Positions 5,766-50,928 of a stretch of DNA of 64,000 bases are shown piece after piece. The position numbers and the translations under genes were made by a program. Positions within the stretch are counted from its first letter, which is position 1. Every line of letters begins with the position of its first letter. The notes beneath the pieces are model-generated. The model did not search any database. It saw nothing but the letters and a program-made list of their open reading frames with translations, and was not told where the DNA came from. Source of the stretch: an uncultured Flavobacteriaceae bacterium (GTDB lineage Bacteria; Bacteroidota; Bacteroidia; Flavobacteriales; Flavobacteriaceae); assembly GCA_947487895.1 (NCBI GenBank), contig CANKYF010000006.1, positions 62,001 to 126,000 on the forward strand, in the 5' to 3' direction.

Positions 5766-5824
5766 TTTTAGACGTTAGATGAATCTGTTCGAAATAGAAA
5801 TGTTTAGGATTCTAACAACTAAAA
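5766..5824 (+). promoter_or_regulatory. Inverted repeat in the rpmJ-rpsM spacer
   Basis: TTTTAG (5766-5771) and GTTAG (5774-5778) can pair with CTAAC (5812-5816) and CTAAAA (5819-5824). A further AATC/GATT pairing lies inside. The 101-bp spacer ends at the rpsM start. It may be an rpsM leader structure or a degenerate word-repeat spacer of the kind common in flavobacteria. No promoter box stands out. Confidence 0.3.
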
Positions 5825-5850
5825 GCTAACTACTAGAAACTAAAAACAAT

Positions 5851-6219: not shown

Positions 6220-6225
6220 TAAATC

Positions 6226-6609
6226 ATGGCAAAGACAAGTACTAAAAAACGTAAAGTTATTGTTGACTCTGTTGGAGAGGCACATGTTACTGCTTCTTTC
6301 AATAATATTATTATTTCACTTACCAATAAAAAAGGAGACGTAATTTCTTGGTCATCTGCTGGTAAGATGGGATTTAGAGGATCTAAGAAAAATACACCTT
6401 ATGCTGCTCAATTAGCTGCTGAAGATGCTGCAAAAGTAGCTCAAGAAGCAGGATTGAAAAAAGTAAAGGTATATGTTAAAGGTCCTGGAAATGGTAGAGA
6501 ATCTGCTATTCGTTCTATTCATAATGCAGGTATTGAAGTAACTGAAATTATTGATGTAACTCCATTACCACATAACGGATGTAGACCTCCAAAACGTAGA
6601 AGAGTTTAA
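6226..6609 (+). CDS. rpsK: 30S ribosomal protein S11 (uS11)
   Basis: 127 residues with the typical [34 protein letters not shown] and the C-terminal [19 protein letters not shown]11 lies on the 30S platform next to the mRNA path. A hairpin followed by T residues lies after it (6684-6725), so transcription probably ends or is attenuated before rpsD. Confidence 0.98.
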
Positions 6610-6683
6610 ATAATTAAGATTATAGATTTTCGATTTAAGATTGATACTCAAAAATCGTATTTCGTAAATCAAAAATCATAAAT

Positions 6684-6725
6684 AAAAATTAATATCATCT
6701 GTTTCTCAGATGGTATTAATTTTTT
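6684..6725 (+). terminator. Intrinsic terminator after rpsK
   Basis: AATTAATATCATCTG pairs with CAGATGGTATTAATT around a short TTTCT loop, with one T-G wobble, followed by TTTTT. It separates rpsM-rpsK from the rpsD-rpoA-rplQ genes, which have their own candidate promoter at 6729. Confidence 0.8.
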
Positions 6726-6728
6726 GCA

Positions 6729-6736
6729 TAAATTTG
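6729..6736 (+). promoter_or_regulatory. Candidate -7 promoter element for rpsD-rpoA-rplQ
   Basis: TAAATTTG matches the Bacteroidota -7 consensus TAnnTTTG and lies just after the rpsK terminator, 105 bp before the rpsD start. No TTG is seen at the expected -33 distance, so the call rests on the -7 box and its position. Confidence 0.45.
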
Positions 6737-6781
6737 CAGACTTTTAAAATTTAAAATAACAAGTATCAACAAGAGATAAAA

Positions 6782-6822
6782 TAGTTATCGAAGGATAAGA
6801 TTAAGACCTTAATTCATAACTA
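6782..6822 (+). promoter_or_regulatory. Structured rpsD leader
   Basis: In the long untranslated leader of rpsD, TAGTTAT (6782-6788) pairs with ATAACTA (6816-6822), and inside it ATTAA-GACC-TTAAT forms a tetraloop hairpin. S4 represses its own operon through mRNA structures in enterobacteria and bacilli; that this structure is an S4 target is inference. Confidence 0.4.
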
Positions 6823-6841
6823 CTCTTAAAAACAATTAGAA

Positions 6842-7447
6842 ATGGCAAGATATACTGGTCCTAAAACTAAAATAGCTAGAAAATTTGGAGAAGCTATTTT
6901 TGGAGAAGATAAATCTTTTGAAAAAAGAAATTACCCTCCAGGTCAACACGGAAACAACAGAAGACGTGGAAAAAAATCTGAGTATGCTATCCAATTAGCA
7001 GAAAAGCAAAAAGCAAAATATACTTACGGTATCTTAGAGCGTCAATTTAGAGGCTTATTTAAAAAGGCAAGAGCTGCACAAGGAATTACTGGTGAAGTTC
7101 TTTTACAATTATGTGAATCTAGATTAGATAATGTTGTGTACCGTATGGGAATTTCTCCATCAAGAAGTGGTGCTAGACAATTAGTATCTCACAGACACAT
7201 TACAGTAAACGGAAACTTAGTAAACATTCCTTCTTACCAATTAAAAGCAGGAGATGTTATTGCTGTAAGAGAAAAATCAAAATCATTAGAAGTTATTCAA
7301 AATTCATTGGCTAACTCTTCAAGTGTTTATGAGTGGATTACTTGGAATAGTGATACTAAAGAAGGAGCTTATGTATCTGTTCCTGCAAGAATTCAAATTC
7401 CAGAAAACATCAACGAGCAATTCATCGTCGAATTATACTCTAAATAA
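6842..7447 (+). CDS. rpsD: 30S ribosomal protein S4 (uS4)
   Basis: 201 residues. The N-terminal [15 protein letters not shown] and the S4 RNA-binding domain around residues 95-160 ([30 protein letters not shown]) are clear. There is no CxxC zinc knuckle near the N terminus. S4 nucleates 30S assembly. It is followed after 100 bp by rpoA, and a long leader with candidate structure precedes it. Confidence 0.98.
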
Positions 7448-9360: not shown

Positions 9361-10470
9361 ATGAAGTATCAAAAAAAACAAGATGCCGTAGTTCTTTTAG
9401 CTGACGGCACCATTTTTCACGGAAAAGCAGTAGGAAACAAGCAAGGAACAGCATTTGGTGAAGTGTGTTTTAACACAGGTATGACAGGTTACCAAGAAAT
9501 ATTTACAGACCCATCATACTTTGGGCAGTTAATGGTAGCAACAAATGCACACATTGGTAATTATGGTACTAATGAAGATGAAGTAGAATCAGATTCAATA
9601 AAAATAGCAGGACTTATAGTTAAAAATTTTAGCTATGATTATTCTCGTGTAGCTGCAGATGAGTCTTTAGAAGATTTCTTAGAAAAGAATAATCTATTAG
9701 CAATTTCAGATGTAGACACTAGAGCATTGGTTAGCTACATTAGAGAACATGGAGCTATGAATGCTATAATTAGTACAGAAGTTGATAATATTGAAGGCCT
9801 AAAAAAGCAATTAGCTGAAGTGCCAAACATGGCAGGTTTAGAATTGGCTTCAAAAGTATCAACTAAAGAACCTTATTATTTTGGTAATGAAAATGCAACA
9901 TATAAAGTTGCTGCTTTAGATATAGGTATTAAGAAAAACATTCTTAGAAATATAGCAGAAAGAGATGTTTATATAAAAGTATTCCCGTACAATTCAAAAT
10001 TTGAAGATTTAGAAGCCTTCAATCCAGATGGGTATTTCTTATCTAACGGACCTGGAGATCCTGAACCATTAGAAGAAGCTCAAGAAGTAGCAAAAGAAAT
10101 TATAAAAAGAGATTTACCACTGTTTGGTATTTGTTTAGGGCATCAAGTAATAGCCATAGCAAATGGGGTTTCTACCTTTAAAATGCATAATGGACACAGA
10201 GGTATTAATCACCCAGTAAAAAATCTTAAAAGTGGTAAGGGAGAAATTACTTCTCAAAACCATGGATTTGCAGTAAATAGAGAAGAAGCTGAAGCAAATT
10301 CAGATTTAGAAATTACACATTTGCATTTAAATGATGATACAGTAGCTGGTTTAGCCATGAAAAGCAAAAACGTTTTTTCTGTACAGTACCATCCAGAAGC
10401 AAGTCCTGGACCACATGATTCCTCTTATTTATTCGATCAATTTGTAGAGAATATTAAAAAAAGTAAATAG
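9361..10470 (+). CDS. carA: Carbamoyl-phosphate synthase small subunit
   Basis: 369 residues. The N-terminal CarA domain holds GTAFGEVCFNTGMTGYQEIFTDPSY. The C-terminal class I glutamine amidotransferase domain has the nucleophile Cys at residue 258 (GICLGHQ) and the His-Glu motif QYHPEASPGP near residues 340-350. It releases ammonia from glutamine for carbamoyl phosphate made by CarB, feeding arginine and pyrimidine synthesis. carB is not adjacent. Confidence 0.97.
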   Translation: MKYQKKQDAVVLLADGTIFHGKAVGNKQGTAFGEVCFNTGMTGYQEIFTDPSYFGQLMVATNAHIGNYGTNEDEVESDSIKIAGLIVKNFSYDYSRVAADESLEDFLEKNNLLAISDVDTRALVSYIREHGAMNAIISTEVDNIEGLKKQLAEVPNMAGLELASKVSTKEPYYFGNENATYKVAALDIGIKKNILRNIAERDVYIKVFPYNSKFEDLEAFNPDGYFLSNGPGDPEPLEEAQEVAKEIIKRDLPLFGICLGHQVIAIANGVSTFKMHNGHRGINHPVKNLKSGKGEITSQNHGFAVNREEAEANSDLEITHLHLNDDTVAGLAMKSKNVFSVQYHPEASPGPHDSSYLFDQFVENIKKSK

Positions 10471-10587
10471 TTAATATATAGGCCTTTTAAAATTCAGTTT
10501 TTTTAAGGCTTATATTTTACTAAAACGTTATAGGTGTCAATTTCATAGTTTATATGAAAACATCTGAAAAAAAAGAAGATTTAACAT

Positions 10588-10595
10588 TAAATTTG
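10588..10595 (+). promoter_or_regulatory. Candidate -7 element for eno
   Basis: TAAATTTG matches TAnnTTTG, 31 bp before the eno ATG. A TTG at the -33 position is not seen, so support is partial. Confidence 0.35.
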
Positions 10596-10614
10596 AAGTA
10601 TAAAATTAAAGTAA

Positions 10615-11919
<1,305 letters not shown>

Positions 11920-11944
11920 TAATACTTAATTTATTGATATATAA

Positions 11945-11978
11945 AAAGCGATTATTTTTTAATAATCGCTTTTTTTTG
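11945..11978 (+). terminator. Terminator after eno
   Basis: AAAGCGATTATT and AATAATCGCTTT pair around TTTT, followed by a T-tract. Confidence 0.9.
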
Positions 11979-12091
11979 GTATCAATTTTATCAATATCCA
12001 AATTTATTAAACCAATAATATTAAGGCTTTAAAAATCCTTTTATATTTCGTAAATTAGCGCTCCGCTTTAACAAAAAAATTACTAGAATAT

Positions 12092-13381
12092 ATGGCAAAT
12101 ACCGCAACCTTAGAAATAGAAGGTAAAAAATATGAATTTCCTTTAATCGAAGGGACAGAGAAAGAAGTAGCAATAGATATTAAGACCCTTAGAGGAGCTA
12201 CAGGTGGTTATATAACTTTAGATTCAGGATATAAAAATACTGGTTCTTGTGAAAGTGCTATTACTTTCTTAGATGGTGAAAAAGGTATTTTAAGATATAG
12301 AGGATACTCTATTGAAGAATTAGCAGAAAAAGCGGATTTCCTTGAGGTAGCTTACCTATTAATTTTTGGTGAATTACCAACAAGTGAACAATTAGAAAAG
12401 TTTCACTCAGATATAAAAGCGCATTCTGTTGTTGATGATGATGTAAAGAAAATTCTTGATGCTTTTCCAAAAGCAGCACATCCAATGGGAGTTTTATCTT
12501 CTTTAACAAGTGCATTAACGGCCTTTAATCCAGAATCTGTTAATGTAGATTCTGAAGAAGACATGTATAATGCTATCGTTAGATTATTAGGAAAGCTTCC
12601 AATATTGGTAGCGTGGGCAATGCGTAAGAAAAAAGGATTGCCATTATATTATGGAGATTCTTCTTTGGGGTATGTTGAGAACATATTAAAAATGATGTTT
12701 AAGCAACCAAATGAAGATAAATATGTTCAAAATCCTATTCTTGTTAATGCTTTAGATAAATTATTAATTCTTCATGCAGATCATGAGCAAAACTGTTCTA
12801 CATCTACTGTTAGAATTACTGGTTCTTCTCATGCTGGATTATTTGCTTCTATTTCGGCTGGTATTTCTGCCCTTTGGGGACCATTACATGGTGGTGCTAA
12901 TCAAGCAGTTTTAGAAATGCTTGAGGCTATTAAAGAAGATGGAGGTGATACTAAAAAGTACATGGCTAAGGCTAAAGATAAATCAGATCCTTTCCGTTTA
13001 ATGGGATTCGGTCATAGAGTTTATAAGAACTTTGATCCAAGGGCAAGAATTATAAAAGTAGCCGCAGATGAAGTTTTAGCAGATTTAGGAGTTACTGACC
13101 CTATTTTGGATATCGCTAAAGGATTAGAACAAGAAGCTTTAAATGATGAGTATTTTGTAAAAAGAAAATTATATCCTAACGTAGATTTTTATTCTGGAAT
13201 TATATACAGAGCAATGGGTATTCCTGTTGAAATGTTTACAGTAATGTTTGCATTAGGGCGTTTACCAGGTTGGATAGCTCAATGGAGAGAAATGCGTTTG
13301 CGCAAAGAACCAATAGGTAGACCAAGACAATTATATATTGGTGAAACTGAAAGAAGTTTCAAATCTATCTCAGAGAGATAA
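12092..13381 (+). CDS. gltA: Citrate synthase (type I)
   Basis: 429 residues, close to the E. coli hexameric enzyme. Catalytic motifs are HADHEQNCSTSTVR, the GPLHGGANQAVLEML histidine region, FGHRVYKNFDPRA, and the C-terminal aspartate in NVDFYSG. It condenses acetyl-CoA and oxaloacetate, the first step of the TCA cycle. It stands alone between the eno terminator and its own hairpin at 13409. Confidence 0.97.
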   Translation: MANTATLEIEGKKYEFPLIEGTEKEVAIDIKTLRGATGGYITLDSGYKNTGSCESAITFLDGEKGILRYRGYSIEELAEKADFLEVAYLLIFGELPTSEQLEKFHSDIKAHSVVDDDVKKILDAFPKAAHPMGVLSSLTSALTAFNPESVNVDSEEDMYNAIVRLLGKLPILVAWAMRKKKGLPLYYGDSSLGYVENILKMMFKQPNEDKYVQNPILVNALDKLLILHADHEQNCSTSTVRITGSSHAGLFASISAGISALWGPLHGGANQAVLEMLEAIKEDGGDTKKYMAKAKDKSDPFRLMGFGHRVYKNFDPRARIIKVAADEVLADLGVTDPILDIAKGLEQEALNDEYFVKRKLYPNVDFYSGIIYRAMGIPVEMFTVMFALGRLPGWIAQWREMRLRKEPIGRPRQLYIGETERSFKSISER

Positions 13382-13408
13382 TATTTAAGTGTTTTTTAAA
13401 TAATTGTT

Positions 13409-13446
13409 AAGCTTTGTGGTTTTTCCATGAAGCTTTTCTTTTTTTT
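13409..13446 (+). terminator. Terminator after gltA
   Basis: AAGCTTTGTGG and CCATGAAGCTT pair imperfectly around a T-rich loop, followed by TTTTCTTTTTTTT. Confidence 0.7.
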
Positions 13447-13490
13447 ACACGTTGTTTTTAAGAATTATTAAAATATTGTTTTTTTATTAC

Positions 13491-13498
13491 TAGCTTTG
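13491..13498 (+). promoter_or_regulatory. Candidate -7 element for the DDAH-like/ctlX pair
   Basis: TAGCTTTG matches TAnnTTTG. The start codon candidates are only 12-21 bp downstream (TTG 13510, GTG 13519), implying a very short leader. No well-placed -33 TTG is seen. Confidence 0.35.
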
Positions 13499-13518
13499 GG
13501 GCTTTAAAATTGAAGCGT

Positions 13519-14430
13519 GTGAAATTAAATATTCAGAATGAAACGTCTAGATTAAGAGCGGTTATTTTAGGAACTGCCGAAAGTTTTGGAGGAACACCAA
13601 AAGCAGAAGATTGTTATGATCCTAAAAGCGTTGAGCATGTTTTGGCAGGGACATACCCTAAAGAGGACGATATGATTTTAGAAATGCAATCTGTAGCAAA
13701 AATTCTTGAGAAATATGGGGTTACAGTTTACAGACCAGATGTATTAAAAAAATGTAATCAAATATTTTCGAGAGATATAGCTTTTACTATTAATGATAAG
13801 ATTATTAGAGCTAATATATTACCAGATAGAGATAAGGAAATAGAGGCAATTAGATATGTTTGGAATAAAATAGATGAAGATAAACGCATTATTTTACCTG
13901 AAGAATGCCATGTTGAAGGCGGTGATGTAATGCCTTGGAATGACTATATTTTTATTGGTACATATACAGGCGAAGATTATCCAGATATTATTACAGCAAG
14001 GACTAATATTGAAGCTGTAAATGCCATAAATGAGTTATTTCCTGATAAAAAAGTAAAGGCATTTGAGCTTAGAAAATCTAATACTAATGCCAAGGAGAAT
14101 GCATTGCATTTAGATTGTTGTTTTCAACCAATAGGAAAAGAGAAAGCGATCATTCACAAAAATGGATTTTTAGTTGAAAGTGAATATGAATGGTTAGTCA
14201 ATTTCTTTGGTATAGAGAATGTTTTTGAAATTGACAAAGAGGAGATGTATGATATGAATTGCAATGTGTTTTCAATATCTGAAGATATTATTATTTCAGA
14301 AAAAAGCTTTACACGTTTAAATACATGGTTAAGAGCCCAGAACTTTATAGTTGAAGAAGTACCTTATTCAGAAATAGGAAAGCAAGGTGGCTTATTAAGA
14401 TGTACTACAATGCCTTTAATTAGAGATTAA
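13519..14430 (+). CDS. Dimethylarginine dimethylaminohydrolase-like pentein hydrolase
   Basis: About 303 residues from GTG 13519; TTG 13510 is an alternative three codons earlier and no ATG is available. Pentein (amidinotransferase/arginine deiminase) superfamily motifs are present: FSRDIAF, HVEGGDVM, the catalytic-type His in ALHLDCCF (near residue 197) and nucleophilic Cys in GGLLRCTTMP (near residue 295). Such enzymes hydrolyse or transfer the guanidine group of arginine derivatives. Dimethylarginine hydrolysis is the annotation usual for this subgroup, but the substrate here is not proven. The stop is directly followed by the ctlX start, so the two are translationally coupled. Confidence 0.8.
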   Translation: MKLNIQNETSRLRAVILGTAESFGGTPKAEDCYDPKSVEHVLAGTYPKEDDMILEMQSVAKILEKYGVTVYRPDVLKKCNQIFSRDIAFTINDKIIRANILPDRDKEIEAIRYVWNKIDEDKRIILPEECHVEGGDVMPWNDYIFIGTYTGEDYPDIITARTNIEAVNAINELFPDKKVKAFELRKSNTNAKENALHLDCCFQPIGKEKAIIHKNGFLVESEYEWLVNFFGIENVFEIDKEEMYDMNCNVFSISEDIIISEKSFTRLNTWLRAQNFIVEEVPYSEIGKQGGLLRCTTMPLIRD

Positions 14431-40470: not shown

Positions 40471-43400
40471 TTACCAAATTCTAAAATTGTTATAAATATT
40501 ATTGTGCCTTACTAAAGGAATATTCTTTTGGAGTTTGTTATTAAAAGGATCTTTTTGATTTTGTATGGTACAATATTGAATAATTTCATTACAAAATTCT
40601 TCAACTGTTATTTCTTTTTTAGAATTAATTAAGTTTAGTATTGATAGTGTTATTAAGCCATTACCTTTTGTGTTACTTTCATAATATTTGTTAGTCCCTT
40701 CTGATGCAGAAATAACAGTGGTTCCATTAGTTAATTTAAGGTCTTCAAAAACTGTTCTCATTAAATTAATGGCTTCTATTTCCTTTATTGTGCTTGCATT
40801 AAAAATTTCTCCGGAATAACATGTGTTTAATATTAGTAATCTATTTCTAGATTTAGTATTGCCTAACAATTCATCAAAATCATTGTAGTTTATACCAGTT
40901 TCAGTAATATTCTTTAGTGATGAGTTGCTAGTACAAAAGAAGTATTCATTTTCTTTTAATAAGGCATGCCCAGATACAAAAAATAAAATGACATCATTTT
41001 CTTTTGCTTGTGATAAAAAAGCTGAGATTTGTTTTATACTATTTTTAGTTACTTGATTATCTGTAAGCGTTAGACGTTTTATAGTATTAGAAGATGTTTT
41101 TTTGAAGGCTTCTGTTAAGGTATAGGCGTCTTTTGATGAATTGGGTGTGTCATTTAAGTATTGATATTTAGAGACTCCTAGAGATACTATAAATAAATTG
41201 CTAATCTCTTTAAGACCTACATATTCAATATTTAGTTCTTCTTTGAATGATGATATTCCTTTTTCATTTATTACAGAGATTAATATTTTGTTTTTACCAT
41301 TAGATAGCTTTAAGGGGACAATGGTTGAAAACTCTTTTTTACTTATAAGCTTATTTGTTAAGTTTTTAATAATAACTCCATTTACACTAAGTTGTAATTT
41401 TTCAAGGTTATACAAGTTGTCTAGTGCTTTAATATTTATATTAATTGTAGAGTTATTTGTTTTATTAGGTATTAAAGCTTTATTGATAATTGTAAGTTCA
41501 GGTGTATGAAAACCTGATTCTAACTCTTCTTCTTTCTTATTGATGCGTTCTAACCTTTTTTTATGGGCTAGTTTATATAATTCTTTATTATTTATAATAC
41601 TATCACCTAAGGTTTCTTTTATTGATTCAATTACTATATCTGGTCTATTGTATTTTAAATCAAATTGTTCAAAATTATATATTTTATTATTCTTAGACAG
41701 AGATAATAACTCATAACCTTTACTTTTATTAAAATAATAATTATTGGGTAAAACAATTATGTTACTCTTATTGTCTTTGTGATAATACTTATCGTAGATT
41801 TTATTTTTTAGTGTGTTGTGGTAAAATGATAAGTTGGCATTAGAGGAGGTAACGAATAGGTTTTTCTTTTTGAGAAAGTCAATATGACTTATGGAATTGT
41901 TAATTAGTTGAGTTTTTCCAGTATTCAAATCTAATAATATAGTTTTTGGTTGTCCAGAAAGTAGAACCTGATGGTTATTTATTAAAATAACTTTATTATT
42001 ATTTAATGTTTGTTTTTCATTGAGAACAAAATGTTTTTCGACTTTATAGGACTCTGAGTTGATAATTTTTATATCAATGTTGTCATTTTTCTTTTTAAAA
42101 GAGAAATAATTGTTTGTTGAGGGTATTATTTCGGAAATTCCATTTACTTCTTTTGGTAAAGTTTTTAGAGTTTTGAGTTTTATATCATAAATATAATTTG
42201 TAAACTCTTCATAAAAATCTAACTTACCAACTACAGGGGCATTTAATGCGCTTATTAATATTTTATTTTTGGAGTTAATAAAACTAATTTTTGATATCGC
42301 AAAAGAAGGAACTTCAATTTCATCTACTAAATGTATGTTATTAGTAGTTTTAAATAATTTAATTGTAGTTATTTGTTTGTCTGGTTTTCCGTTAATTTTA
42401 TATGTCTTATTAGTTATGTGTTTCATTAAATCAGAGAATAATTGTTCTGAATTAACTTTTTTGTTTTTAGATAAAGAAGAGAATGCTTTTGCGGCACTTT
42501 CTAATTCTGTAGATGCTATATAATCTAAATTATGACTTGTAAAACAGTTGCTAAAAGAAGTTTTTTGGGTTGGAATTGAATCTAAAACTTTAAAAGGTTT
42601 AATACTCCATAATTTTATAGAATTGTTGGTTTTAGTAATAAACCGATTCCTTGTTTTACTAACTCTAATATTAAAATGTGTATTTTCCCTTATAAGATCT
42701 ATCGTTTCTTGATTTTTATAATCAAAGTGTTCTAAATAATTACCCCTTTTATAAATAATAGTAGAGTCTGAAGTGAAAAATGGATAAGAAACTTTAGCTA
42801 AATTTGATTGGAATATTTCATTAGTGTTGTATTGATAATTCCATACACGAATTGTTTTATGTTCTGATATGCTATAATATACTTCTTTTTTCTTTGGGTC
42901 AATATGAATAATGGCCAAACGAGTTAATGGTTTTAGTAAAGGTATATCAAGATCCTCATTATTATTAACATTGTCGGTTTTTAATTTATTAATACATTTT
43001 CCAGTTTTAATGTCCCATATATAAATATATCTATTTTCATCTGAAGTTAAAATAGTTTCAGAATCCACAATTAAAGTCTCATTAAAAACAGTATGATGAC
43101 TTAATATATTTGTGGTTTGGTTTGTTGTAGCATTATACAATTCTATGTAAGATCTATGGTTGGGGTTTATGTTTCCAGTTCTTTTAGATCTAGATAGTGA
43201 TTGCATAAATTTGCAGTTTGCAAATAACCCCTTTTCTAGATTCCAACTTGAAGCATTTACTTTAAATCCTACTTTAGAAGCCAACGACATGTTAAGATCA
43301 AAACCTGTTGATGTAACTTCCTTTTCAATTATATAAGAACTTAAATTCCATTTTTGATATATTACAGGGGCATTATACGTCAGATCATTCCCTTTAAGTA

Positions 43401-44007
43401 CAAAAAAGAACTTATTATCATTAGAAAATTCAAAATCTATTATTTTAATAAAATAACTTTTTTCAAGAGAGATGCTTTTTAGTATTGAAATAGTATTACC
43501 CTTAATTTCATAAATTTGTATACCATACTCTCTATGAATTACGGCAAATTTATCTCCACTTCTATTGAATTTTATTTTAGTAAAAGTATCTATGAAATTA
43601 TTTGTGCTAGATTCTAATATTCCAAAAGGTTCACTCTTTTGATTTTTGTATAATTCTATAGAATACTGTTTTTTATTTTCTTTTGTATGCTTTAAAAGTG
43701 CATATGTGTTTCCTGTATAATTTATAGCGTATTTAGCGATACTTTCTTTTAAATCTATTTTTTTTTTAGACATGATTCTTCTAGAATTGGTATCCCATAT
43801 TTCTAATTGATTTTTAGTTAAAATGATCAATTTAGATTTGTCTCCATTTAATTTAAAGTCTATGCCTAAAGCCTTTGAATTACGATTTATTGAAAATTCT
43901 GAAACAGGTTTTTGCACTACAATGGTTTCTTGGTTTTGAGAAAATGAATTAAAGAAAAAAAGAAAGAAAAATATTGAGAATAGGTAAGGTGCTGTTCTAA
44001 ATTGCAT
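40471..44007 (-). CDS. Exported caspase-family protease with propeller-like N-terminal region
   Basis: 1178 residues. Signal peptide TAPYLFSIFFFLFFFNSFSQ, then about 750 residues of repeated WD/propeller-like strands (for example KLIILTKNQLEIWDTNSRR; RYIYIWDIKTGKCINKL; IRVWNYQY). A beta domain follows, and a C-terminal caspase fold (about 940-1178) with the His-Cys dyad at His1014 (FVSGHALL) and Cys1063 (LILNTCYSGE). Export argues for a periplasmic or surface role rather than cytoplasmic suicide. It is last in a leftward unit with 44090 and 44791, and a 19-bp motif lies 55 bp before its start. Confidence 0.85.
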   Translation of the reverse strand: MQFRTAPYLFSIFFFLFFFNSFSQNQETIVVQKPVSEFSINRNSKALGIDFKLNGDKSKLIILTKNQLEIWDTNSRRIMSKKKIDLKESIAKYAINYTGNTYALLKHTKENKKQYSIELYKNQKSEPFGILESSTNNFIDTFTKIKFNRSGDKFAVIHREYGIQIYEIKGNTISILKSISLEKSYFIKIIDFEFSNDNKFFFVLKGNDLTYNAPVIYQKWNLSSYIIEKEVTSTGFDLNMSLASKVGFKVNASSWNLEKGLFANCKFMQSLSRSKRTGNINPNHRSYIELYNATTNQTTNILSHHTVFNETLIVDSETILTSDENRYIYIWDIKTGKCINKLKTDNVNNNEDLDIPLLKPLTRLAIIHIDPKKKEVYYSISEHKTIRVWNYQYNTNEIFQSNLAKVSYPFFTSDSTIIYKRGNYLEHFDYKNQETIDLIRENTHFNIRVSKTRNRFITKTNNSIKLWSIKPFKVLDSIPTQKTSFSNCFTSHNLDYIASTELESAAKAFSSLSKNKKVNSEQLFSDLMKHITNKTYKINGKPDKQITTIKLFKTTNNIHLVDEIEVPSFAISKISFINSKNKILISALNAPVVGKLDFYEEFTNYIYDIKLKTLKTLPKEVNGISEIIPSTNNYFSFKKKNDNIDIKIINSESYKVEKHFVLNEKQTLNNNKVILINNHQVLLSGQPKTILLDLNTGKTQLINNSISHIDFLKKKNLFVTSSNANLSFYHNTLKNKIYDKYYHKDNKSNIIVLPNNYYFNKSKGYELLSLSKNNKIYNFEQFDLKYNRPDIVIESIKETLGDSIINNKELYKLAHKKRLERINKKEEELESGFHTPELTIINKALIPNKTNNSTININIKALDNLYNLEKLQLSVNGVIIKNLTNKLISKKEFSTIVPLKLSNGKNKILISVINEKGISSFKEELNIEYVGLKEISNLFIVSLGVSKYQYLNDTPNSSKDAYTLTEAFKKTSSNTIKRLTLTDNQVTKNSIKQISAFLSQAKENDVILFFVSGHALLKENEYFFCTSNSSLKNITETGINYNDFDELLGNTKSRNRLLILNTCYSGEIFNASTIKEIEAINLMRTVFEDLKLTNGTTVISASEGTNKYYESNTKGNGLITLSILNLINSKKEITVEEFCNEIIQYCTIQNQKDPFNNKLQKNIPLVRHNNIYNNFRIW

Positions 44008-44062
44008 TCTGATTTGTTGAAAGGTGAGTATGTGTCAAAAGTAAAATGTTCTTAGACTGATT

Positions 44063-44081
44063 TTTTGCGATAAACCGCAAG
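44063..44081. promoter_or_regulatory. TTTTGCG-N5-CCGCAAG motif before the caspase gene
   Basis: TTTTGCGATAAACCGCAAG. It holds an inverted TTGCG-N6-CGCAA core and all 14 fixed bases are shared with 48698-48716, in front of the CsgG-like gene. It lies 55 bp upstream of the caspase start. There is no T-tract in the reading direction, so an operator is more likely than a terminator. Confidence 0.6.
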
Positions 44082-44089
44082 ACAGCTCA

Positions 44090-44785
44090 TTACATTTCTA
44101 CCATAAAAGGGCTGGAGTTAATAATTTGTCCATTTGAGAATATAAAATCTATGCGCATTAATACTTTTGTTTTTTCAAATGTACCATTCCAATGTGCTGA
44201 AGGGAAAAACCGTAAATTTAAAGCAAGCCCTCCATCTTTAATAGCATGTGTTTGATTGAGCTTGATTTTTTGATGTTGTTTTATTTTATGAATGTCTATA
44301 AATAATTTTTCTCTTTCATCTTTTTTATGAGCAAAATAGTTTTTGTCAGTACCATGAGATATTCTAGTGTTATAGATATAAACTGAAACCTCCTTAATAT
44401 GATAAATTGTATTATTGTCTTGGAGTTCAAAAGCAAATCTTAGCTCAGGTGAGGTTTGAATATATTTAACATAGCATAAATCTAAGTTAGAATCATTTTT
44501 ATCATTGTTAAAATCTTTATACGAATTTTTAACTTTCAATTCACATGTTTTACAAAATGTTATCAAATTCTTATCTGGAGCAAACTCAAAACTTCTAACA
44601 GTTTGAGGAAATTTAGCAAATAAGCTATCTGGTTCAACATAATTTTTAAAGACATCTTTAGTGTAGGTTTTTTCCTTGTAAAAATCGGAATGAAGTTCCA
44701 TGGCTAAAAAATTAACTTTTGGCTTGTCTTGAGCAAATGCATTAAGTTGAAAACATAAAATTGAGATAAATAATAAACGTTTCAT
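44090..44785 (-). CDS. Exported protein of unknown function
   Basis: 231 residues from ATG 44785, chosen because it gives the signal peptide MKRLLFISILCFQLNAFAQ; a longer frame begins at 44830. Not recognised. The mature part is mostly beta-like, with a CKTC pair near residue 85 and hydrophilic loops (KDFNNDKNDSN). It starts 5 bp after the stop of the membrane protein gene upstream and is followed by the caspase gene, so it belongs to that unit. Confidence 0.75.
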   Translation of the reverse strand: MKRLLFISILCFQLNAFAQDKPKVNFLAMELHSDFYKEKTYTKDVFKNYVEPDSLFAKFPQTVRSFEFAPDKNLITFCKTCELKVKNSYKDFNNDKNDSNLDLCYVKYIQTSPELRFAFELQDNNTIYHIKEVSVYIYNTRISHGTDKNYFAHKKDEREKLFIDIHKIKQHQKIKLNQTHAIKDGGLALNLRFFPSAHWNGTFEKTKVLMRIDFIFSNGQIINSSPFMVEM

Positions 44786-44790
44786 ATAAT

Positions 44791-45636
44791 CTAAATCTTT
44801 GATAAAACAATAGGTTGTATTGATTTCCAAAAAGGAGGAATCTCAATGGTTTCTATGCCTGGGTATTCTTCACCATAACCGTCATCGGTAGAAAAATAGT
44901 ATAATTGAGTCTTTCCTATAACTAATTTGATTTCTAGAGTATAGTTGTTTTGACTGTTAAGTTTTCCTAATTCGGTTTTTTGGCTTTCATCATCTATTTT
45001 AAAAACCGTAATGTTTAAGTTTTGATTAGAATGAATAGAAACTTTGCGGAAAGTAGTTTTATAAATACCTGCAAGTACTGCTAGTGATATCATTAAGAGT
45101 AAGACTGTTTTTTTTCTATTTCTTATGAATCTTTTTACAATTGTGTCTCTTGAGTTTGCTTTAGGAACTTTATTAGTAATATCCGTATTTTTTACTTGAG
45201 TATCCAAAGATGTTTTGTTATTTACTGTATCGTTTTCTTTTTCATCAGGCAAAAAAATAGAATCAATAATATCTTTTTTAATATCAGTTTTTTCAAAATG
45301 AGTTTTTATCTCATCAGGATATTCTTTTGCTATATTTTTAAAACGTTTTAAGTGATTTACATCAAAATAATAACAAGAAAGTATTTCAAGTGTAATTCTA
45401 TCAGGTAGCCCATAGTCTTCTACATTTTTACCAGTAAGCTTCTTTTCTAGGTTAAGAGCTCTTTTAATTGTTCTTTGACTCCTTGAATCTCCTTCTAGAG
45501 AGTCTTGATCGCTTATGAGTTTTGCAAGCTTGCTATCACTACCATTTGGGTTAGAACGTTTCCACTCTTTATTAATAGCATTTACGAGATAAATGAATGT
45601 TGGTATTTCCTCTTTTTTTAGCAATAAACTAGACAT
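44791..45636 (-). CDS. Single-pass membrane protein, unknown
   Basis: 281 residues from ATG 45636 (a longer frame reaches 45702). The N-terminal 110 residues are cytoplasmic and helical (FIYLVNAINKEWKRSNPNG; SDSKLAKLISDQ; RITLEILSCYYF). A basic stretch (KRFIRNRKKT) precedes one membrane helix (VLLLMISLAVLAGIY, near 178-195), and about 85 residues are periplasmic. The layout resembles one-component membrane-bound regulators, but no family was recognised. It is first in the caspase unit and divergent from the lipoprotein/kinase unit. Confidence 0.75.
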   Translation of the reverse strand: MSSLLLKKEEIPTFIYLVNAINKEWKRSNPNGSDSKLAKLISDQDSLEGDSRSQRTIKRALNLEKKLTGKNVEDYGLPDRITLEILSCYYFDVNHLKRFKNIAKEYPDEIKTHFEKTDIKKDIIDSIFLPDEKENDTVNNKTSLDTQVKNTDITNKVPKANSRDTIVKRFIRNRKKTVLLLMISLAVLAGIYKTTFRKVSIHSNQNLNITVFKIDDESQKTELGKLNSQNNYTLEIKLVIGKTQLYYFSTDDGYGEEYPGIETIEIPPFWKSIQPIVLSKI

Positions 45637-45692
45637 GTTTAAATATATAAAAATATGATGATTTAGGTGAGTTTTTATATACGGTAAAATAG

Positions 45693-45720
45693 ACATGTCC
45701 ATAGCCGTCCATACATGTCC
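45693..45720. promoter_or_regulatory. ACATGTCC direct repeats in the divergent promoter region
   Basis: ACATGTCC occurs at 45693-45700 and 45713-45720, exactly 20 bp apart (two helical turns), with a half-matching CCGTCCATA between them. Each first copy is within the palindrome GACATGTC. They lie 57 bp upstream of the membrane protein gene, in the 197-bp region shared with the lipoprotein/kinase unit. A candidate operator. Confidence 0.45.
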
Positions 45721-45791
45721 TATATAAATGAGAAATAATATACAATTTAGCCTTGTAATTACAAAAGAATCGCAGTGTGATTAAGTAAACA

Positions 45792-45803
45792 GAGAGGCCT
45801 CTC
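45792..45803. promoter_or_regulatory. Perfect palindrome GAGAGGCCTCTC in the lipoprotein leader
   Basis: A 12-bp perfect palindrome followed by ATTTTTC, 30 bp before the ATG of the 51-aa lipoprotein. It could be a protein-binding site or a short stem-loop in the leader. Function unknown. Confidence 0.35.
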
Positions 45804-45833
45804 ATTTTTCTAACATTTAAAAAGTTTAAAAAA

Positions 45834-45989
45834 ATGAGAACATTAAGTAAATTTTTATTTGGAATTTTAATGATGACTAATTTATGTTTAACATCTTGTA
45901 CCGAAACTAGTATTGATGAGGAAGAATTAGAAGTTTTAGCAACAGAAGGAGATGAAAATAAAAAACCTGTACCACCAGATGAGGATTAG
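45834..45989 (+). CDS. 51-aa putative lipoprotein
   Basis: A short frame with a convincing lipoprotein signal: MRTLSKFLFGILMMTNLCLTSC, with the lipobox LTSC. The mature peptide of about 30 residues is acidic (SIDEEELEVLATEGDENKK) and ends PVPPDED. A terminator follows 12 bp later. It is the first gene rightward from the shared promoter region, just before the sensor kinase. Not recognised. Confidence 0.7.
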   Translation: MRTLSKFLFGILMMTNLCLTSCTETSIDEEELEVLATEGDENKKPVPPDED

Positions 45990-46000
45990 GTCTATTTTTG

Positions 46001-46030
46001 AAAAGCTACTTATTTTAAGTGGCTTTTCTT
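46001..46030 (+). terminator. Terminator or attenuator after the 51-aa lipoprotein
   Basis: AAAAGCTACTT and AAGTGGCTTTT pair with one G-U around ATTTT, followed by CTTTT. Some transcripts may stop here and the rest read into the kinase gene. Confidence 0.75.
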
Positions 46031-46058
46031 TTATATATTTATAGTTCAATAAAGGTTT

Positions 46059-47996
46059 GTGAATTTCAAGTGTATTATATTTTTTATTACTCTAATGCTT
46101 AACTCTTGTGTAGAAAAAGAGAAGTCAAATTTTTTTCATTTAAAAAAGAGTGATAGTATTTCAAATTATTATTACAAAATTGCAAACGATAAAAAAACAA
46201 ACTTAAAAAAGCGAGAACAAGCTATAAATATTGCTTACAAACGTCTTCTAAAACTAAAAAAGGATACTTTTTTATATAAGGTTTTATATAAGAAAGCATA
46301 TATACATTACCTTAATGGGGAGTATGATAGTTTATTGTATTATTCAGATATCTTAGAGAAAGAATTAGAATTTAATAATACTAATCCGTACAAACCCAAA
46401 ATTACTTCTTTAAAAGGATTCTATTATGCAAATATAGCTTATGATACAGATAGTGCTTTTTATTATTACAATCAATCAAAGAATATTTATAAAAAGCTTT
46501 CTGACACAATTCAAATAGCGAAAACACTTTTAAACATTAGTTATATTCAATTAGATAACAGTGATTATTTTGGAAGTAAAGAGTCTGTGACAGAGGCTAT
46601 TGAGTTATTGAGAAAAAAGGGCAATGAGCAGTATTTGCCCTCATTTTATCATGTGTTGGCAACAAATAACAGAAAGTTGTTAAATTATGAAGATGCTTTT
46701 TTTTATTATAGAAAAGCAATTGAAAAAGCAATCATTAAGGACGATGAATTGCTTTTTAAGAATAATCTGTCTGCCGCTTATATAGATGTAAATAGTTATA
46801 ATAAAGCTATTGCAATTCTAAAAGAAATTGTAAAAGATTCTACTATTAGGATAGAACAACCAAAAATTTATGCAAGAGCTCTAGATAATCTAGCTTATTC
46901 ACAATGGTTAGAAGATTCAAGAAATGTAAATAACACTTTTCAAGAGGCTTTAAACATTAGAAAAACGCACAAAGATAAGTTAGGGCTACTGGCGAGTTAT
47001 ACTCACCTTGGTGAGTTTTACATGAAAAAAAATAAAACGCAGGCCATAAATTATTTTATAAAGGCAATTAACACCTCAAAGTCTATTAAAAATCCAAAAG
47101 GCGAATTAGATGCTTTACAATTTTTAATGAAAATTAAATCTAATGATTTAAACATTAGAGACAGGTATATTAGCTTAAGTGATAGTTTACATAAGCAAGA
47201 ATTAAAAGTAAAAACCCAATTTGCCAAAATTAGATATGATGATAAGCTTAAAAATGAAGAGATAAAGGAATTAAAAACGATTACAAAAAATCAACAACTG
47301 GAGGTTACGGTACAACAAAGGCAAAAAATTATATATCTATTACTAGGGCTTATTGTAATAATCTTAGCAATATTTTATAGCTATTATTTAATTCAAAAAC
47401 ATAAAAAAGATAAAGAAAAGGAGGTGTATAGAACTGAAAAACTCATATCTAAAAGAGTGCATGATGAAATAGCTAATGATATTTCATTGCTTGCAAATTT
47501 AGTAGGAGACAATTCTAGTTTACAAAATCCATCCTCAAAAAAAATCTTAGAAAGCAAGCTACAAAATGTTTATTTAAGAGCTAGAGATATTTCTACAGAT
47601 ATTTCTAGTATAGATCTTAAAGATTTTAAAGAAGAGTTAAAAAACTTAATAATACAGTATAATACTGGTAATGTAAATGTAATTACCAACTTAGAAGATT
47701 TTGAGTGGTCTAAAGTCGCAGACCATAAAAAAATAGCTATATATAGAGTATTACAGGAATTGTTTATTAATACAAAAAAGCATAGTAATTGCAAAAGAAT
47801 AACTTTAATGTTAAAAGATAAAGGTGTTAATAGAATAATTACTTACACAGATGATGGGGTAGGGTTCAATAAAAATAAAGTGAAATTTAATGGACTTAAT
47901 AATGCGGAAAATCGCATTGAAAATATAAGTGGGTCTTTTAATTTTGAAACAAACCCAGATAAAGGGGTTAAAGTAATTATAAATATAAAGAGGTAA
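46059..47996 (+). CDS. Lipoprotein TPR sensor kinase (HisKA_3 type)
   Basis: 645 residues from a GTG start. The N terminus has a lipobox (FITLMLNSC), so it is probably lipid-anchored as well as membrane-spanning. TPR repeats cover about 35-370. A membrane helix near 428-447 (IIYLLLGLIVIILAIFYSYYLI) leads to a HisKA_3 phosphoacceptor His468 (KRVHDEIANDIS) and a HATPase domain (LQELFINTKKHSNCKRI; TDDGVGFNKN). This pairs with NarL-type regulators, and one follows 12 bp later. Confidence 0.9.
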   Translation: MNFKCIIFFITLMLNSCVEKEKSNFFHLKKSDSISNYYYKIANDKKTNLKKREQAINIAYKRLLKLKKDTFLYKVLYKKAYIHYLNGEYDSLLYYSDILEKELEFNNTNPYKPKITSLKGFYYANIAYDTDSAFYYYNQSKNIYKKLSDTIQIAKTLLNISYIQLDNSDYFGSKESVTEAIELLRKKGNEQYLPSFYHVLATNNRKLLNYEDAFFYYRKAIEKAIIKDDELLFKNNLSAAYIDVNSYNKAIAILKEIVKDSTIRIEQPKIYARALDNLAYSQWLEDSRNVNNTFQEALNIRKTHKDKLGLLASYTHLGEFYMKKNKTQAINYFIKAINTSKSIKNPKGELDALQFLMKIKSNDLNIRDRYISLSDSLHKQELKVKTQFAKIRYDDKLKNEEIKELKTITKNQQLEVTVQQRQKIIYLLLGLIVIILAIFYSYYLIQKHKKDKEKEVYRTEKLISKRVHDEIANDISLLANLVGDNSSLQNPSSKKILESKLQNVYLRARDISTDISSIDLKDFKEELKNLIIQYNTGNVNVITNLEDFEWSKVADHKKIAIYRVLQELFINTKKHSNCKRITLMLKDKGVNRIITYTDDGVGFNKNKVKFNGLNNAENRIENISGSFNFETNPDKGVKVIINIKR

Positions 47997-48008
47997 TTCT
48001 TCAAATAA

Positions 48009-48677
48009 ATGTTTAAAAAAATACTTTTAGTAGAAGACCAACAAAGTATTAGTAAAGGACTTAAAAGTATTTTGAATGATTTAGATATTTACAATGTTGA
48101 AACTTCAGATTATTGTGACAATGCCTTACTAAAGATTAAAGCTTCTTTAGCTAAAAAGCAACCTTATGATCTTCTTATAACCGATTTGTCTTTTAAGGAT
48201 GATTATTTTTTAAAAACCATAGGTTCTGGAGAAGAACTTATAGAGCAAGTAAAAAAAATACAACCAGATTTAAAGATTATTGTTTTTTCTATTCAAAGTA
48301 AAGTTGGTATAGTAAAAAAGCTAGTTGAAGATTATGCTATTGATGCTTTTATTTCAAAAGGAAGAAGAGAATCTGAAGACATTAAGAAAGCAATTCAATT
48401 AGTCTCAAAAGGCAAAAAATACTATTCTAATTCTATATTAACATTATTTAATAACTCTAGAAATATTTCTCAGTTAAGTACATCAGATACGTTAATATTA
48501 AAACTACTGGCAAGTGGTTTAAAGCAAAAGCAAATTCCAGAGCATTTTAAAAAAAACAATATTCCTTCTGGTAGTAAACGGAGTATAGAGTACAGGCTTC
48601 AAGAGCTTAAAATTATGTTTGGTGCAGAAACGCTTCCTCAACTTATAGGTATTGTGAAAGACATAGGGCTAATTTAA
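48009..48677 (+). CDS. Response regulator, NarL-like
   Basis: 222 residues. The receiver domain has acidic residues near the start (LLVEDQQ), phosphoacceptor Asp59 (LLITDLSFKDD) and FSIQSK/FISKG. The C-terminal part (about 155-222) looks like a LuxR-type HTH that has diverged (TSDTLILKLLASGLKQKQIPEHF; SKRSIEYRLQELKIMFG). It is the cognate regulator of the kinase upstream and is the obvious candidate to bind the TTTTGCG-N5-CCGCAAG motif found 21 bp downstream. Confidence 0.87.
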   Translation: MFKKILLVEDQQSISKGLKSILNDLDIYNVETSDYCDNALLKIKASLAKKQPYDLLITDLSFKDDYFLKTIGSGEELIEQVKKIQPDLKIIVFSIQSKVGIVKKLVEDYAIDAFISKGRRESEDIKKAIQLVSKGKKYYSNSILTLFNNSRNISQLSTSDTLILKLLASGLKQKQIPEHFKKNNIPSGSKRSIEYRLQELKIMFGAETLPQLIGIVKDIGLI

Positions 48678-48697
48678 ATTAGTGTTAAATATTCTGC

Positions 48698-48716
48698 TTT
48701 TGCGTTTTTCCGCAAG
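48698..48716. promoter_or_regulatory. TTTTGCG-N5-CCGCAAG motif before the CsgG-like gene
   Basis: TTTTGCGTTTTTCCGCAAG, sharing all 14 fixed bases with 44063-44081. It lies 49 bp before the CsgG-like gene start, about the same distance as the other copy from the caspase gene. A candidate operator that links the two divergent gene sets. Confidence 0.6.
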
Positions 48717-48765
48717 TTGATTTTTATTATAGGTTATAAATTTATTCCTTATAAAAAACAAAATT

Positions 48766-50076
48766 ATGGGGGTAATTAAACTATCTAAAAACACAATATT
48801 ACTTTTATTAGTAATACTAAACTTTAATTTAAGTTCAGCACAATTATTTAAACCAACAATGACAACTTCGCTTCTTAGTCCTTCAGAAAAGGATATAGGA
48901 AATGTGAAAAGAATAGCTATTCTTGATTTTGAAAATATAAGCAGTCAAGAATATAAAGAAGCAGGAATTGATATTGGAAGTAAATTAGCAGATTATTTAT
49001 CAATTTCTATGTTGGAAGAATATAGAGGTAAAGGCCAAAATTGTTTTATAGAAGGAGCGCGAACAGATATTTATTCTATTGTAGAGCGAGAAGAAGTAGA
49101 TCGGGTACTTCAAGAAAAGCAATTTGAATTAGCAGATTTAAATGATACTCAAATAATGTCAATTGGAAAGATTCTTAACGTAGATGCCATAATTTTGGGT
49201 AATGTTTCTTATTCAAGCTCAGATGAAAGAGATTATAAATCTTATAGAACAGACCAAGGTAAACTAGTTAGTACTCATTATTTAACAAGAACAACTTCGG
49301 CTGAGGCTAGAATGAAAATACTGTTAGTTGCTACAGGTGAAATTATAGGGCAAACTAGTAATAGATCCTCAAGAAGTGATTCAACTAAAGGGGGAACTAG
49401 ACCTGGCTTGAATGCGGTACAGGCTCCAAATAAGCTTGCAGAATATGCATGTGAAAATATTGCTCGTCAGTTTGCAAATTACTTAACGCCCTATTATTAT
49501 TCCTATACATTTACTTTTGAAAAGGTTAAGCACAAAGAACTTAAAGAGCGTGTTAAAGATGCTACCGAGTATTTAAGGTTACGTGAAATAGATAAGGCAT
49601 ACGAAATGTATTCTGCCATTTATGAAGTAGATCCCTATAATGCAGAATTAGTATTTAATATGGGAGTTCTTAATGAGATAGTTGGTAATTATGATAAGGC
49701 TAAAGAATTATATGATGTGGCAGTTAATATGAATTCAGGAAACGATGCTTATGTAAAAGGGTTGCGAAGAGCGGAAAATAATATAGAACTTTCAAAATAT
49801 TTAAATGATTTAGGAATAGTTATAACTCCGTACGATTTTAAAATAAATTCAGAAGGAAATCTATTGGTTGAACGCGTAAAGATAAAAGGTCCAAGAAGTA
49901 AAAGAAAAGCCGCATACGCTGATGCTAAAGATAATTCTAAAATATTAGGGCAATTTCCAGGTGGTTTGGAGCTTGATCTTTTAGGGAGGGTTGATAAAGA
50001 AAAGTGGATATTAGTAAAATTACCAAATGGTAAAAAAGGATATTTTAAAGGTAAAGATGTTATAACTGGTAAGTAA
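48766..50076 (+). CDS. CsgG-like exported protein with TPR and SH3-like regions
   Basis: 436 residues. Signal peptide (LLLLVILNFNLSSAQ) without a lipobox, unlike true CsgG. The CsgG-family region (about 40-245) has VKRIAILDFENIS, IVEREEVDRVLQEKQFELADLND and IGKILNVDAIILGNVSYS. A TPR pair follows (about 258-330: AYEMYSAIYEVDPYNAELVFNMGVL), then an SH3-like C terminus (about 375-434: KILGQFPGGLELDLLGRVDKEKWILVKL). Probably a periplasmic assembly or sensing protein. It lies 6 bp before the lectin-like gene. Confidence 0.8.
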   Translation: MGVIKLSKNTILLLLVILNFNLSSAQLFKPTMTTSLLSPSEKDIGNVKRIAILDFENISSQEYKEAGIDIGSKLADYLSISMLEEYRGKGQNCFIEGARTDIYSIVEREEVDRVLQEKQFELADLNDTQIMSIGKILNVDAIILGNVSYSSSDERDYKSYRTDQGKLVSTHYLTRTTSAEARMKILLVATGEIIGQTSNRSSRSDSTKGGTRPGLNAVQAPNKLAEYACENIARQFANYLTPYYYSYTFTFEKVKHKELKERVKDATEYLRLREIDKAYEMYSAIYEVDPYNAELVFNMGVLNEIVGNYDKAKELYDVAVNMNSGNDAYVKGLRRAENNIELSKYLNDLGIVITPYDFKINSEGNLLVERVKIKGPRSKRKAAYADAKDNSKILGQFPGGLELDLLGRVDKEKWILVKLPNGKKGYFKGKDVITGK

Positions 50077-50082
50077 AGGATC

Positions 50083-50928
50083 ATGAAATATTGTAAAATA
50101 AAAAAAATATGCAATGTTTTAATTCTTTTAGTATGTTTTTCTATTTCTTCTGTTAATTCGCAAGAAGTGCTAATTACAGATTTAGATTTTCCTGAAGAAA
50201 TTATGAATGATGTTAATTCATTAATCAAACTTAGAAAATCCGAAAATTATAAAGAACTAATAGATTTAGCTCAGGTTTACAAGAAGGATAACTTAATATT
50301 TGGTCATGTTTATGATATGTATATTGTGGATGCCGCTTTTCAGCTTAGAGATTTTGATAAAATTATTGAATATGTAGAACCCTATGTTTTAAAAGAACAA
50401 TCATTTGTGGTAGAGGGTGATGCAAAAAGTTACTTAGGGCAGGCTTATGTCAATACTAATCAAGTTAAAGAGGGCTGTGATCTTTTGGGCGAAGTTAAAA
50501 TTAATGACCCACAATATGCCATTATGTATGTCTCAAATTGCTGTAAGTATGATAGTTATTCTATAAATATTTCAGGAAAACTACAAAACATGAAAACTAA
50601 CATACAAGTTTCTAAGGGAGATATAGTAAATTTCCAAGCTACAGGTAAGGTGTCATTTGGTATGTTTTCTGGTTATTCAGGGCCTGAAGGGTTTACTAAT
50701 GGTGCTTATAGAAATTATAATAGAACGCAGGAGATGAATCATGGGGAGCTTTTTTTCTCTGTAAGTAGTGATCCATATCTATTTTATGATTTAGAGAATT
50801 TACACTTTATTAAATCTTCAGGGTATATAGTCTTTCATATTAATGATAAACAAACTGCTAACAATAGCGGGAGCTTTAAAGCAGATATAAGGGTTTATAG
50901 TGCAGATGATGTCCTTTTTAAAGAATAA
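50083..50928 (+). CDS. Exported protein with C-terminal PA-IL (LecA)-like lectin domain
   Basis: 281 residues. Signal peptide (ICNVLILLVCFSISSVNSQ), then a helical TPR-like part (about 35-165). The C-terminal 110 residues resemble the Pseudomonas galactophilic lectin PA-IL: VSKGDIVNFQATGKVSFG, HGELFFSV, and NDKQTANNSGSFKADI, where Asp255, Thr258, Asn260 and Asn261 match the calcium/sugar ligands of PA-IL (its loop is two residues longer). This is inference by motif. It is cotranscribed with the CsgG-like gene and ends at a strong terminator. Confidence 0.6.
   Translation: MKYCKIKKICNVLILLVCFSISSVNSQEVLITDLDFPEEIMNDVNSLIKLRKSENYKELIDLAQVYKKDNLIFGHVYDMYIVDAAFQLRDFDKIIEYVEPYVLKEQSFVVEGDAKSYLGQAYVNTNQVKEGCDLLGEVKINDPQYAIMYVSNCCKYDSYSINISGKLQNMKTNIQVSKGDIVNFQATGKVSFGMFSGYSGPEGFTNGAYRNYNRTQEMNHGELFFSVSSDPYLFYDLENLHFIKSSGYIVFHINDKQTANNSGSFKADIRVYSADDVLFKE

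Follow-up and report, generated by a model that had tools for sequence, protein, structure and literature searches.

Two palindrome copies are predicted to place a caspase gene and a CsgG-like gene under one NarL-type two-component system in a Flavobacteriaceae bacterium

We analyzed a 64,000-nt stretch of DNA from an uncultured Flavobacteriaceae bacterium (contig CANKYF010000006.1, positions 62,001 to 126,000; hereafter the window), in which two copies of a 19-bp motif precede a caspase gene and a CsgG-like gene. Very probably, the response regulator encoded at 48009-48677 has both copies as its operators, from which it would activate the caspase and the CsgG-like promoters. An earlier sequence-only reading of the window had joined the two genes into one regulon tied to this regulator. 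Sequence comparison supports that view: the pair is kept in a second species, exchanged loci provide a natural control, the wider regulator family has a recognizable operator, and operator and promoter box are spaced by 21 nt. The elements concerned are as follows.

44063-44081 (core 44065-44080), minus strand: putative operator 1, upstream of the caspase gene; kept at 5280-5295 of L069, the orthologous locus of uncultured Flavobacteriaceae YR2-618.
48698-48716 (core 48700-48715), plus strand: putative operator 2, upstream of the CsgG-like gene; kept at 9901-9916 of L069.
44036-44043, minus strand: box TACTTTTG, assigned by sequence and spacing as the -7 element of the caspase promoter and separated from the operator core by 21 nt.
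48737-48744, plus strand: -7-like box TAAATTTA, assigned to the CsgG-like promoter and likewise separated from its operator core by 21 nt.
40471-44007, minus strand: caspase gene, with beta-propeller-type repeats and a C-terminal caspase domain (NF047832, PADLOC caspase).
48009-48677, plus strand: NarL/RcsB-like response regulator, predicted to bind both operators (Pfam, NCBIfam, profile alignment).
48766-50076, plus strand: CsgG-like/DUF6340 gene with TPR and SH3-like parts (Pfam).

Both copies match TTTTGCGN5CCGCAAG exactly on the plus strand, at the positions reported in the sequence-only reading, and the distances of 55 and 49 bp to the start codons that it gave were correct. The copies are not scattered over the genome, since the exact pattern has only these two sites in all 4,386,169 bases. 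With up to three mismatches, the window contained nine matches versus 1.98 expected, a number reached in 0 of 100 shuffles; several of the nine are single sites counted on both strands. Genome-wide, nine further matches with two mismatches gave a total of 11 versus 9 for the reversed control pattern. The shared motif is better described as the palindrome TTGCG-N6-CGCAA, located at 44065-44080 and 48700-48715 and present exactly twice in the genome. This count alone is not evidence, because the reversed control of the palindrome likewise has two sites per genome. The pair carries weight because both copies precede the same two genes here and in YR2-618. Operator 1 lies between the gene o246 and the caspase gene, within the leftward run o303-o246-caspase, and would therefore act on the caspase gene itself.

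In YR2-618 (G025), whose loci L039 and L069 are the same contig (C19), the gene order is kept, with identities of 61% for the caspase, 60% for o246, 36% for o303, 65% for the kinase, 77% for the regulator, and 75% for the CsgG-like protein. This genome has exactly two TTGCG-N6-CGCAA palindromes, and they precede the orthologous caspase and CsgG-like genes. Between the window and L069, the arms of operator 1 are identical at 10 of 10 positions, its spacer at 4 of 6, and its flanks (within 60 bp) at 49 of 87; the corresponding values for operator 2 are 10 of 10, 5 of 6, and 74 of 103. No genome besides G025 and that of the window was found to combine caspase gene, CsgG-like gene, and this regulator. 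At E ≤ 1e-60, the CsgG-like gene was detected only in the window's own genome (G000) and in G025 among 397 genomes of the bacterial family, and the caspase only in G000 in a draw of 395 genomes of the order, for which the inclusion of G025 is not shown.

Relatives of the regulator (E ≤ 1e-30) were found in 23 of 59 genomes, the own genome included, and a 14-member profile detected the family in 144 of 397 sampled genomes of the bacterial family (E ≤ 1e-45). We counted palindromes de novo in the intergenic DNA of the loci of 22 relatives, with the window and L039 left out. The top-ranked palindrome was TACGG-N4-CCGTA, present in 15 of the 22 loci (0.0 in 20 shuffles); next came TTACG-N6-CGTAA, in 12 loci (0.15 in the shuffles). 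In a held-out set of 100 further loci from other genomes, each with a family regulator, the two palindromes recurred at the same ranks, in 63 and 55 loci, respectively, versus 0.0 in 10 shuffles for both; these draws are not fully independent, because some share a genus with discovery genomes. TTACGG-N4-CCGTAA, counted with at most one mismatch outside reading frames and up to 1.5 kb downstream of the regulator gene, was present in 71 of the 100 held-out loci, whereas 60 permuted half-sites averaged 0.017, with a maximum of 1. Its exact form occurred in 16 of the 59 genomes, namely in 14 of the 23 with the regulator family and in 2 of the 36 without it (Fisher p = 5e-6). Aligned with the window palindrome, the family palindrome has the same geometry but reads A instead of G as the third base of either half-site. 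TTGCG-N6-CGCAA itself was absent from the intergenic DNA of the other 122 loci (22 discovery and 100 held-out).

These 122 loci contain 180 family sites with at most one mismatch, which we scanned for promoter elements. In 102 of them, the sequence TAnnTTTG starts exactly 21 nt past the palindrome on the side of the nearer gene. Other spacings were rare on this side (two at 22 nt, two elsewhere within 50 nt), as was the box on the far side (three at 21 nt, five elsewhere). TAnnTTTG and TTTG are described as the -7/-33 promoter of the Bacteroidetes phylum (PMC2483708). Both window promoters and both G025 promoters have a -7 box of the form TAnnTTTG or TAnnTTTA at 21 nt; in L069 the boxes are TATTTTTG at the caspase promoter and TACATTTA at the CsgG-like promoter. 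With 21 nt between its core and the -7 box, the operator overlaps the usual -33 place. Such an overlap is a usual position for an activator that contacts the polymerase, and the placement therefore fits an activator site. The caspase promoter and the 102 family sites share the -7 box with Bacteroidetes promoters but have an operator over the -33 place, and the CsgG-like promoter differs further by its box TAAATTTA.

Alternatively, the same regulator might bind the palindromes to repress: it would cover the promoter and leave it only upon a signal. NarL-type regulators can both activate and repress, the site adjoins the promoter, and steric blocking would also fit. We nevertheless consider repression unlikely: the rigid 21-nt spacing and the -33 overlap fit an activator, and neither window promoter has TTTG at the -33 place, with only a TTG following the operator on the CsgG-like side.

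A search of the own genome for further regulon members, using the palindrome followed after 21 nt by TAnnTTT with up to three mismatches, revealed no excess. Without mismatches it returned the two window sites, with one mismatch none, and at two to three mismatches the 144 matches in G000 compare with 186 for the reversed control; we claim no regulon members other than the two promoters. One near-match of operator and -7 spacing with two mismatches (G000:C6:109902-109945) lies within the kinase reading frame of the locus and also occurs in G025; it is probably conserved coding sequence.

The regulator family possesses the conserved phospho-acceptor Asp and the Lys of NarL/FixJ receivers (Response_reg, E = 8.2e-11; D10, D59, and K117 invariant in 14 members). 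Profile alignment with hhalign to NarL-type and more distant regulators, six in all, gave 99.9% and covered the C-terminal part. According to PMC4549865, NarL sites have a 7-2-7 layout (two heptamers 2 bp apart) with the half-site TACCCCT, and the predicted family operator TTACGGN-N2-NCCGTAA is a 16-bp inverted repeat of this layout. The family differs from NarL/FixJ in a 6-residue insertion before the recognition helix, in the lack of a GerE match, and in the half-site, which is TTACGG or TTGCG.

In this kind of regulator, specificity is set by helix 9 and the 8-9 loop (PMC3246441). At one position of the recognition helix, 123 of 126 regulators have K, and Y is confined to the window (Y195) and L069, one sequence being cut short. 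A second position holds N (93), S, K, G, T, I, or A in 123 regulators, and Q is confined to the same two loci (Q198 in the window). The change in the helix (Y for K, and Q for what is mostly N) and the change in the operator (A to G) coincide.

A natural control is provided by L068 (YR2-1303) and L070 (Flavivirga amylovorans), where the CsgG-like gene is also present (74% and 76% identity). The regulator beside it is a different one, only 25% identical to that of the window. It belongs to the NarL type by NCBIfam in L068, and the L068 and L070 proteins, both among the six partners of the profile alignment, are 98% identical to each other. The kinase is divergent from the CsgG-like gene. L068 and L070 carry an exchanged cassette at the same groEL-linked place. 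TTGCG-N6-CGCAA was not found in either stretch, and the caspase gene was not found in the whole genomes. Each of these genomes (G757 and G758) contains a single TTGCG-N6-CGCAA at another place, which lies within a reading frame and has no -7 box 21 nt away. They also encode family regulators elsewhere, with identities of 48%, 50%, and 40%, all three with the helix K. Near the 48% regulator lies TTACGG-N4-CCGTAA in its exact form, 21 nt from a -7 box; near the 50% regulator we found only sites with two mismatches, and near the 40% regulator two sites of the form TTACAG-N4-CTGTAA, each 21 nt before a -7-like box. Thus, these genomes lack all three: the Y/Q regulator, the caspase gene, and the TTGCG operator. 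The sequence-only reading had listed a motif lost from related loci despite kept genes as evidence against its regulon; the motif is lost at the CsgG-like gene only where the caspase gene and the cognate regulator are missing as well.

In L068 (1747-9794) and L070 (1790-9795), the CsgG-like gene is accompanied by a CHAT-like protein (features seen by eye), the NarL-type regulator, and the divergent kinase; the CHAT-like protein of L068 had no NCBIfam or PADLOC match. A search for the site of the exchanged regulator gave no recognizable pair among the best 20 of at least 60 repeat families in each stretch. A palindrome, GGGAATTCCC, is conserved upstream of the CsgG-like gene in both (intergenic 9795-10000) and is possibly this site. 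In L224, a family regulator with the helix STIDKRVSKLF is accompanied by two TTACAG-N4-CTGTAA sites (3234-3249 and 5208-5223) with -7-like boxes at 21 nt, possibly a further half-site variant that tracks the helix.

Another regulator of the genome might bind both sites, with the neighboring one a mere bystander. The genome has eight regulator matches, and binding by the 48009-48677 protein is itself a prediction. Against this, the site occurs across genomes along with this regulator family, concentrated next to the family's genes, the base and helix changes coincide, and the TTGCG promoter site is missing where the caspase gene and the Y/Q regulator are missing. We therefore regard a different regulator as improbable, more so than repression. 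Still less credit is due to the idea that the palindromes are RNA hairpins, serving as terminators or processing sites after o246 and the regulator gene. Both copies follow stop codons (at 20 bp on the side of the regulator gene and 8 bp on the side of o246), and a run of five T starts 5 nt past the regulator-side copy. However, the stem comprises only 5 bp, no T-run follows directly on either transcribed strand (judged on unfolded sequence), and the sequence itself, beyond its pairing, recurs across the family. For 179 family sites, both neighbors are known: the flanking genes are divergent at 20, co-directional at 136, and convergent at 23. The distance to the -7 box is fixed. A terminator was accordingly judged unlikely. 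A chance pair, for which one might cite the roughly one palindrome per genome that we estimate from base composition and the single copies within reading frames in G757 and G758, is practically negligible given the same two places in two species, the equal -7 spacing, and the geometry of the family operator.

Several observations weigh against the activator-operator reading. Pfam GerE does not match the C-terminus of the regulator, and the AlphaFold model of the protein has a good receiver and a low-confidence DNA-binding part, whose helices were used for helix order only. The residue and base changes count as one event, because the TTGCG form rests on two orthologous loci. G occurs at the changed base in approximately 4% of half-sites near K-type regulators (selected with at most one mismatch). 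TTGCGG scores in 5 of the 100 held-out loci under the one-mismatch rule, because this rule admits hybrids of both forms. Owing to the single event and the tolerance of K-type regulators for G, the co-change of helix and operator is suggestive, not proof. The CsgG-like box TAAATTTA departs from TAnnTTTG at its last base, and this promoter may have a weak -33 element, because TTG follows its operator. Of the held-out loci, 29 lack a site under the one-mismatch rule. G016 and G038 have exact sites but no regulator at E ≤ 1e-30, the regulator of G016 being present only as a fragment with stops, and the sole exact sites of G003 and G017 lie away from their regulator genes.

The remaining genes of the locus are listed below.

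44090-44830, minus strand: o246, between o303 and the caspase gene; 60% identity in L069.
44791-45702, minus strand: o303, divergent gene for a putative single-pass membrane protein.
45834-45989, plus strand: 51-residue lipoprotein-like frame before the kinase gene; counterpart in L069 and many family loci.
46059-47996, plus strand: sensor histidine kinase with TPR repeats and a HATPase part (Pfam scores just under the curated cut-offs; NCBIfam).
50083-50928, plus strand: gene following the CsgG-like gene; no Pfam match; 86-residue partial relative in L070.

The caspase protein matched NF047832 at residues 943-1130 (E = 2.3e-19; 69.8 bits, under the curated cut-off of 140) and the PADLOC caspase model (E = 1.6e-7); the Pfam beta-propeller models scored under their cut-offs. 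For the 48766-50076 product, the label CsgG-like stands as a marginal match at the cut-off: CsgG (PF03783) gave 20.9 bits (gathering cut-off 20.8) and covered 51 of 210 positions, and DUF6340 gave 26.3 bits (cut-off 26.4). The label lectin-like, which the sequence-only reading had given to the following gene, found no Pfam family to back it. The AlphaFold model of the CsgG-like protein (mean pLDDT, the predicted local distance difference test score, of 43.5) was too poor for a fold search. No Pfam or NCBIfam model matched o303. Near its start, ACATGTC repeats were seen by eye at 45693-45719, and likewise in L070 at approximately 6815-6865, upstream of the gene at 5361-6782. Many relatives of the lipoprotein-like frame end in CCGDDG-like and poly-proline stretches; its product could be a signal or a co-sensor.

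If the palindromes are activator operators of the 48009-48677 regulator, the 46059-47996 kinase would phosphorylate this regulator, and the small lipoprotein and o303 may serve as co-sensors. A regulator dimer would then bind TTGCG-N6-CGCAA, as the co-variation suggests, and from the observed position at the -33 place it may activate transcription leftward into the caspase gene and rightward into the CsgG-like gene and probably its follower. The sensing genes have no perfect operator copy before them, so that the sensors are likely made ahead and the effectors on demand.

We found no description of the regulator family or its operator in the literature searched, mostly without the text of subscription journals. 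The locus appears to be a variant of NarL-type two-component control, notable for its spread and for the caspase gene tied to it. In NCBIfam, the window regulator matches RcsB best (E = 3.8e-11), but at 42.9 bits versus a cut-off of 235, and RcsB chains follow two unnamed response regulators in the PDB matches of the family. The small lipoprotein, together with a candidate small RNA behind the operator in other loci, is reminiscent of RcsF and RprA. Unlike the Rcs phosphorelay, the locus has a TPR kinase, and no hybrid kinase or phosphotransfer protein was found within it, the locus being all that was searched; the Rcs box also differs from the DNA site proposed here. The likeness to Rcs is best taken as analogy, not membership. 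With the predicted conflict systems that contain caspases (NF047832, EACC1-associated caspase; PADLOC caspase), the locus shares a caspase domain matched by both models; it differs by its score under the NF047832 cut-off and by the position of the gene behind a putative two-component operator.

Parts of the locus recur around the family regulators. Among 92 held-out loci with an adjacent kinase, 54 contain a lipoprotein-like frame (38-80 residues, up to 700 bp before the kinase), versus 9 in a control stretch; the pattern is loose, and a few of the 54 look spurious. A divergent gene of 180-330 residues is present in 51 of the 92. The genes behind the family operators vary and include TerB, YidD, Hsp70, a TerY-PP2C-kinase set, DUF4407, and many unknowns. 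For 101 proteins behind sites in 48 held-out loci, the most frequent Pfam matches were YidD (6), TerB (6), DUF6804 (4), DUF4236 (4), Excalibur (4), M48 (3), and HSDR_N (3), and PADLOC matches were scattered, with at most 6 of 101 per model. We do not claim a defense enrichment, because these counts lack a background set. In L056, TerY (PADLOC, E = 5.3e-54) and PP2C (E = 1.4e-26) were identified; the TerY-PP2C-kinase set (10492-13603) lies behind a family operator. Operators stand at 10416 and at 17311, and 6.9 kb on, another gene is preceded by a second, near-identical operator pair.

Candidate small RNAs of 62-93 nt were observed between tandem family operators or directly 3' of the regulator gene (L053:3866-4135, L056:10283-10431, L043:10311-10444, L120:8191-8324, and others). 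Their layout comprises a -7 box, in many cases GCTATTAAT, frequently GGGAG, and then a hairpin whose sequence varies, with a T-run after it. Candidates with a terminator-type hairpin number 28, in 26 of the 122 loci scanned; they were chosen for TATTA near the start, in a count without a shuffled control, and some come from near relatives. RNAalifold gave no consensus structure on the alignment, Rfam no match at the gathering score in the four loci searched, and no candidate was seen behind the two window operators.

Tentatively, and with somewhat less than even confidence, we propose a signaling module widespread in Flavobacteriaceae, with the window as one example, in which a divergent membrane protein, a lipoprotein of 50-60 residues, a TPR kinase, and an RcsB-like regulator whose DNA-binding domain carries an insertion would control exchangeable effector operons (caspase/CsgG-like; TerY-P, TerB, Hsp70, and others), often with an RNA of about 70 nt, via a 7-2-7 operator 21 nt before the -7 box. 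In the lineage of the window, effectors, helix, and operator would have changed together and formed an insulated private circuit. The joint change of the helix (to Y from K, and to Q from a residue that is mostly N) and the base (A to G) bears on how the specificity of NarL-type regulators evolves. The operator, the promoter spacing, and the regulator family are search tools for other Flavobacteriaceae genomes, and the targets of a widespread two-component system thereby become predictable. For the bacterium itself, the pair represents a predicted on-switch, at base level, for a bacterial caspase gene.

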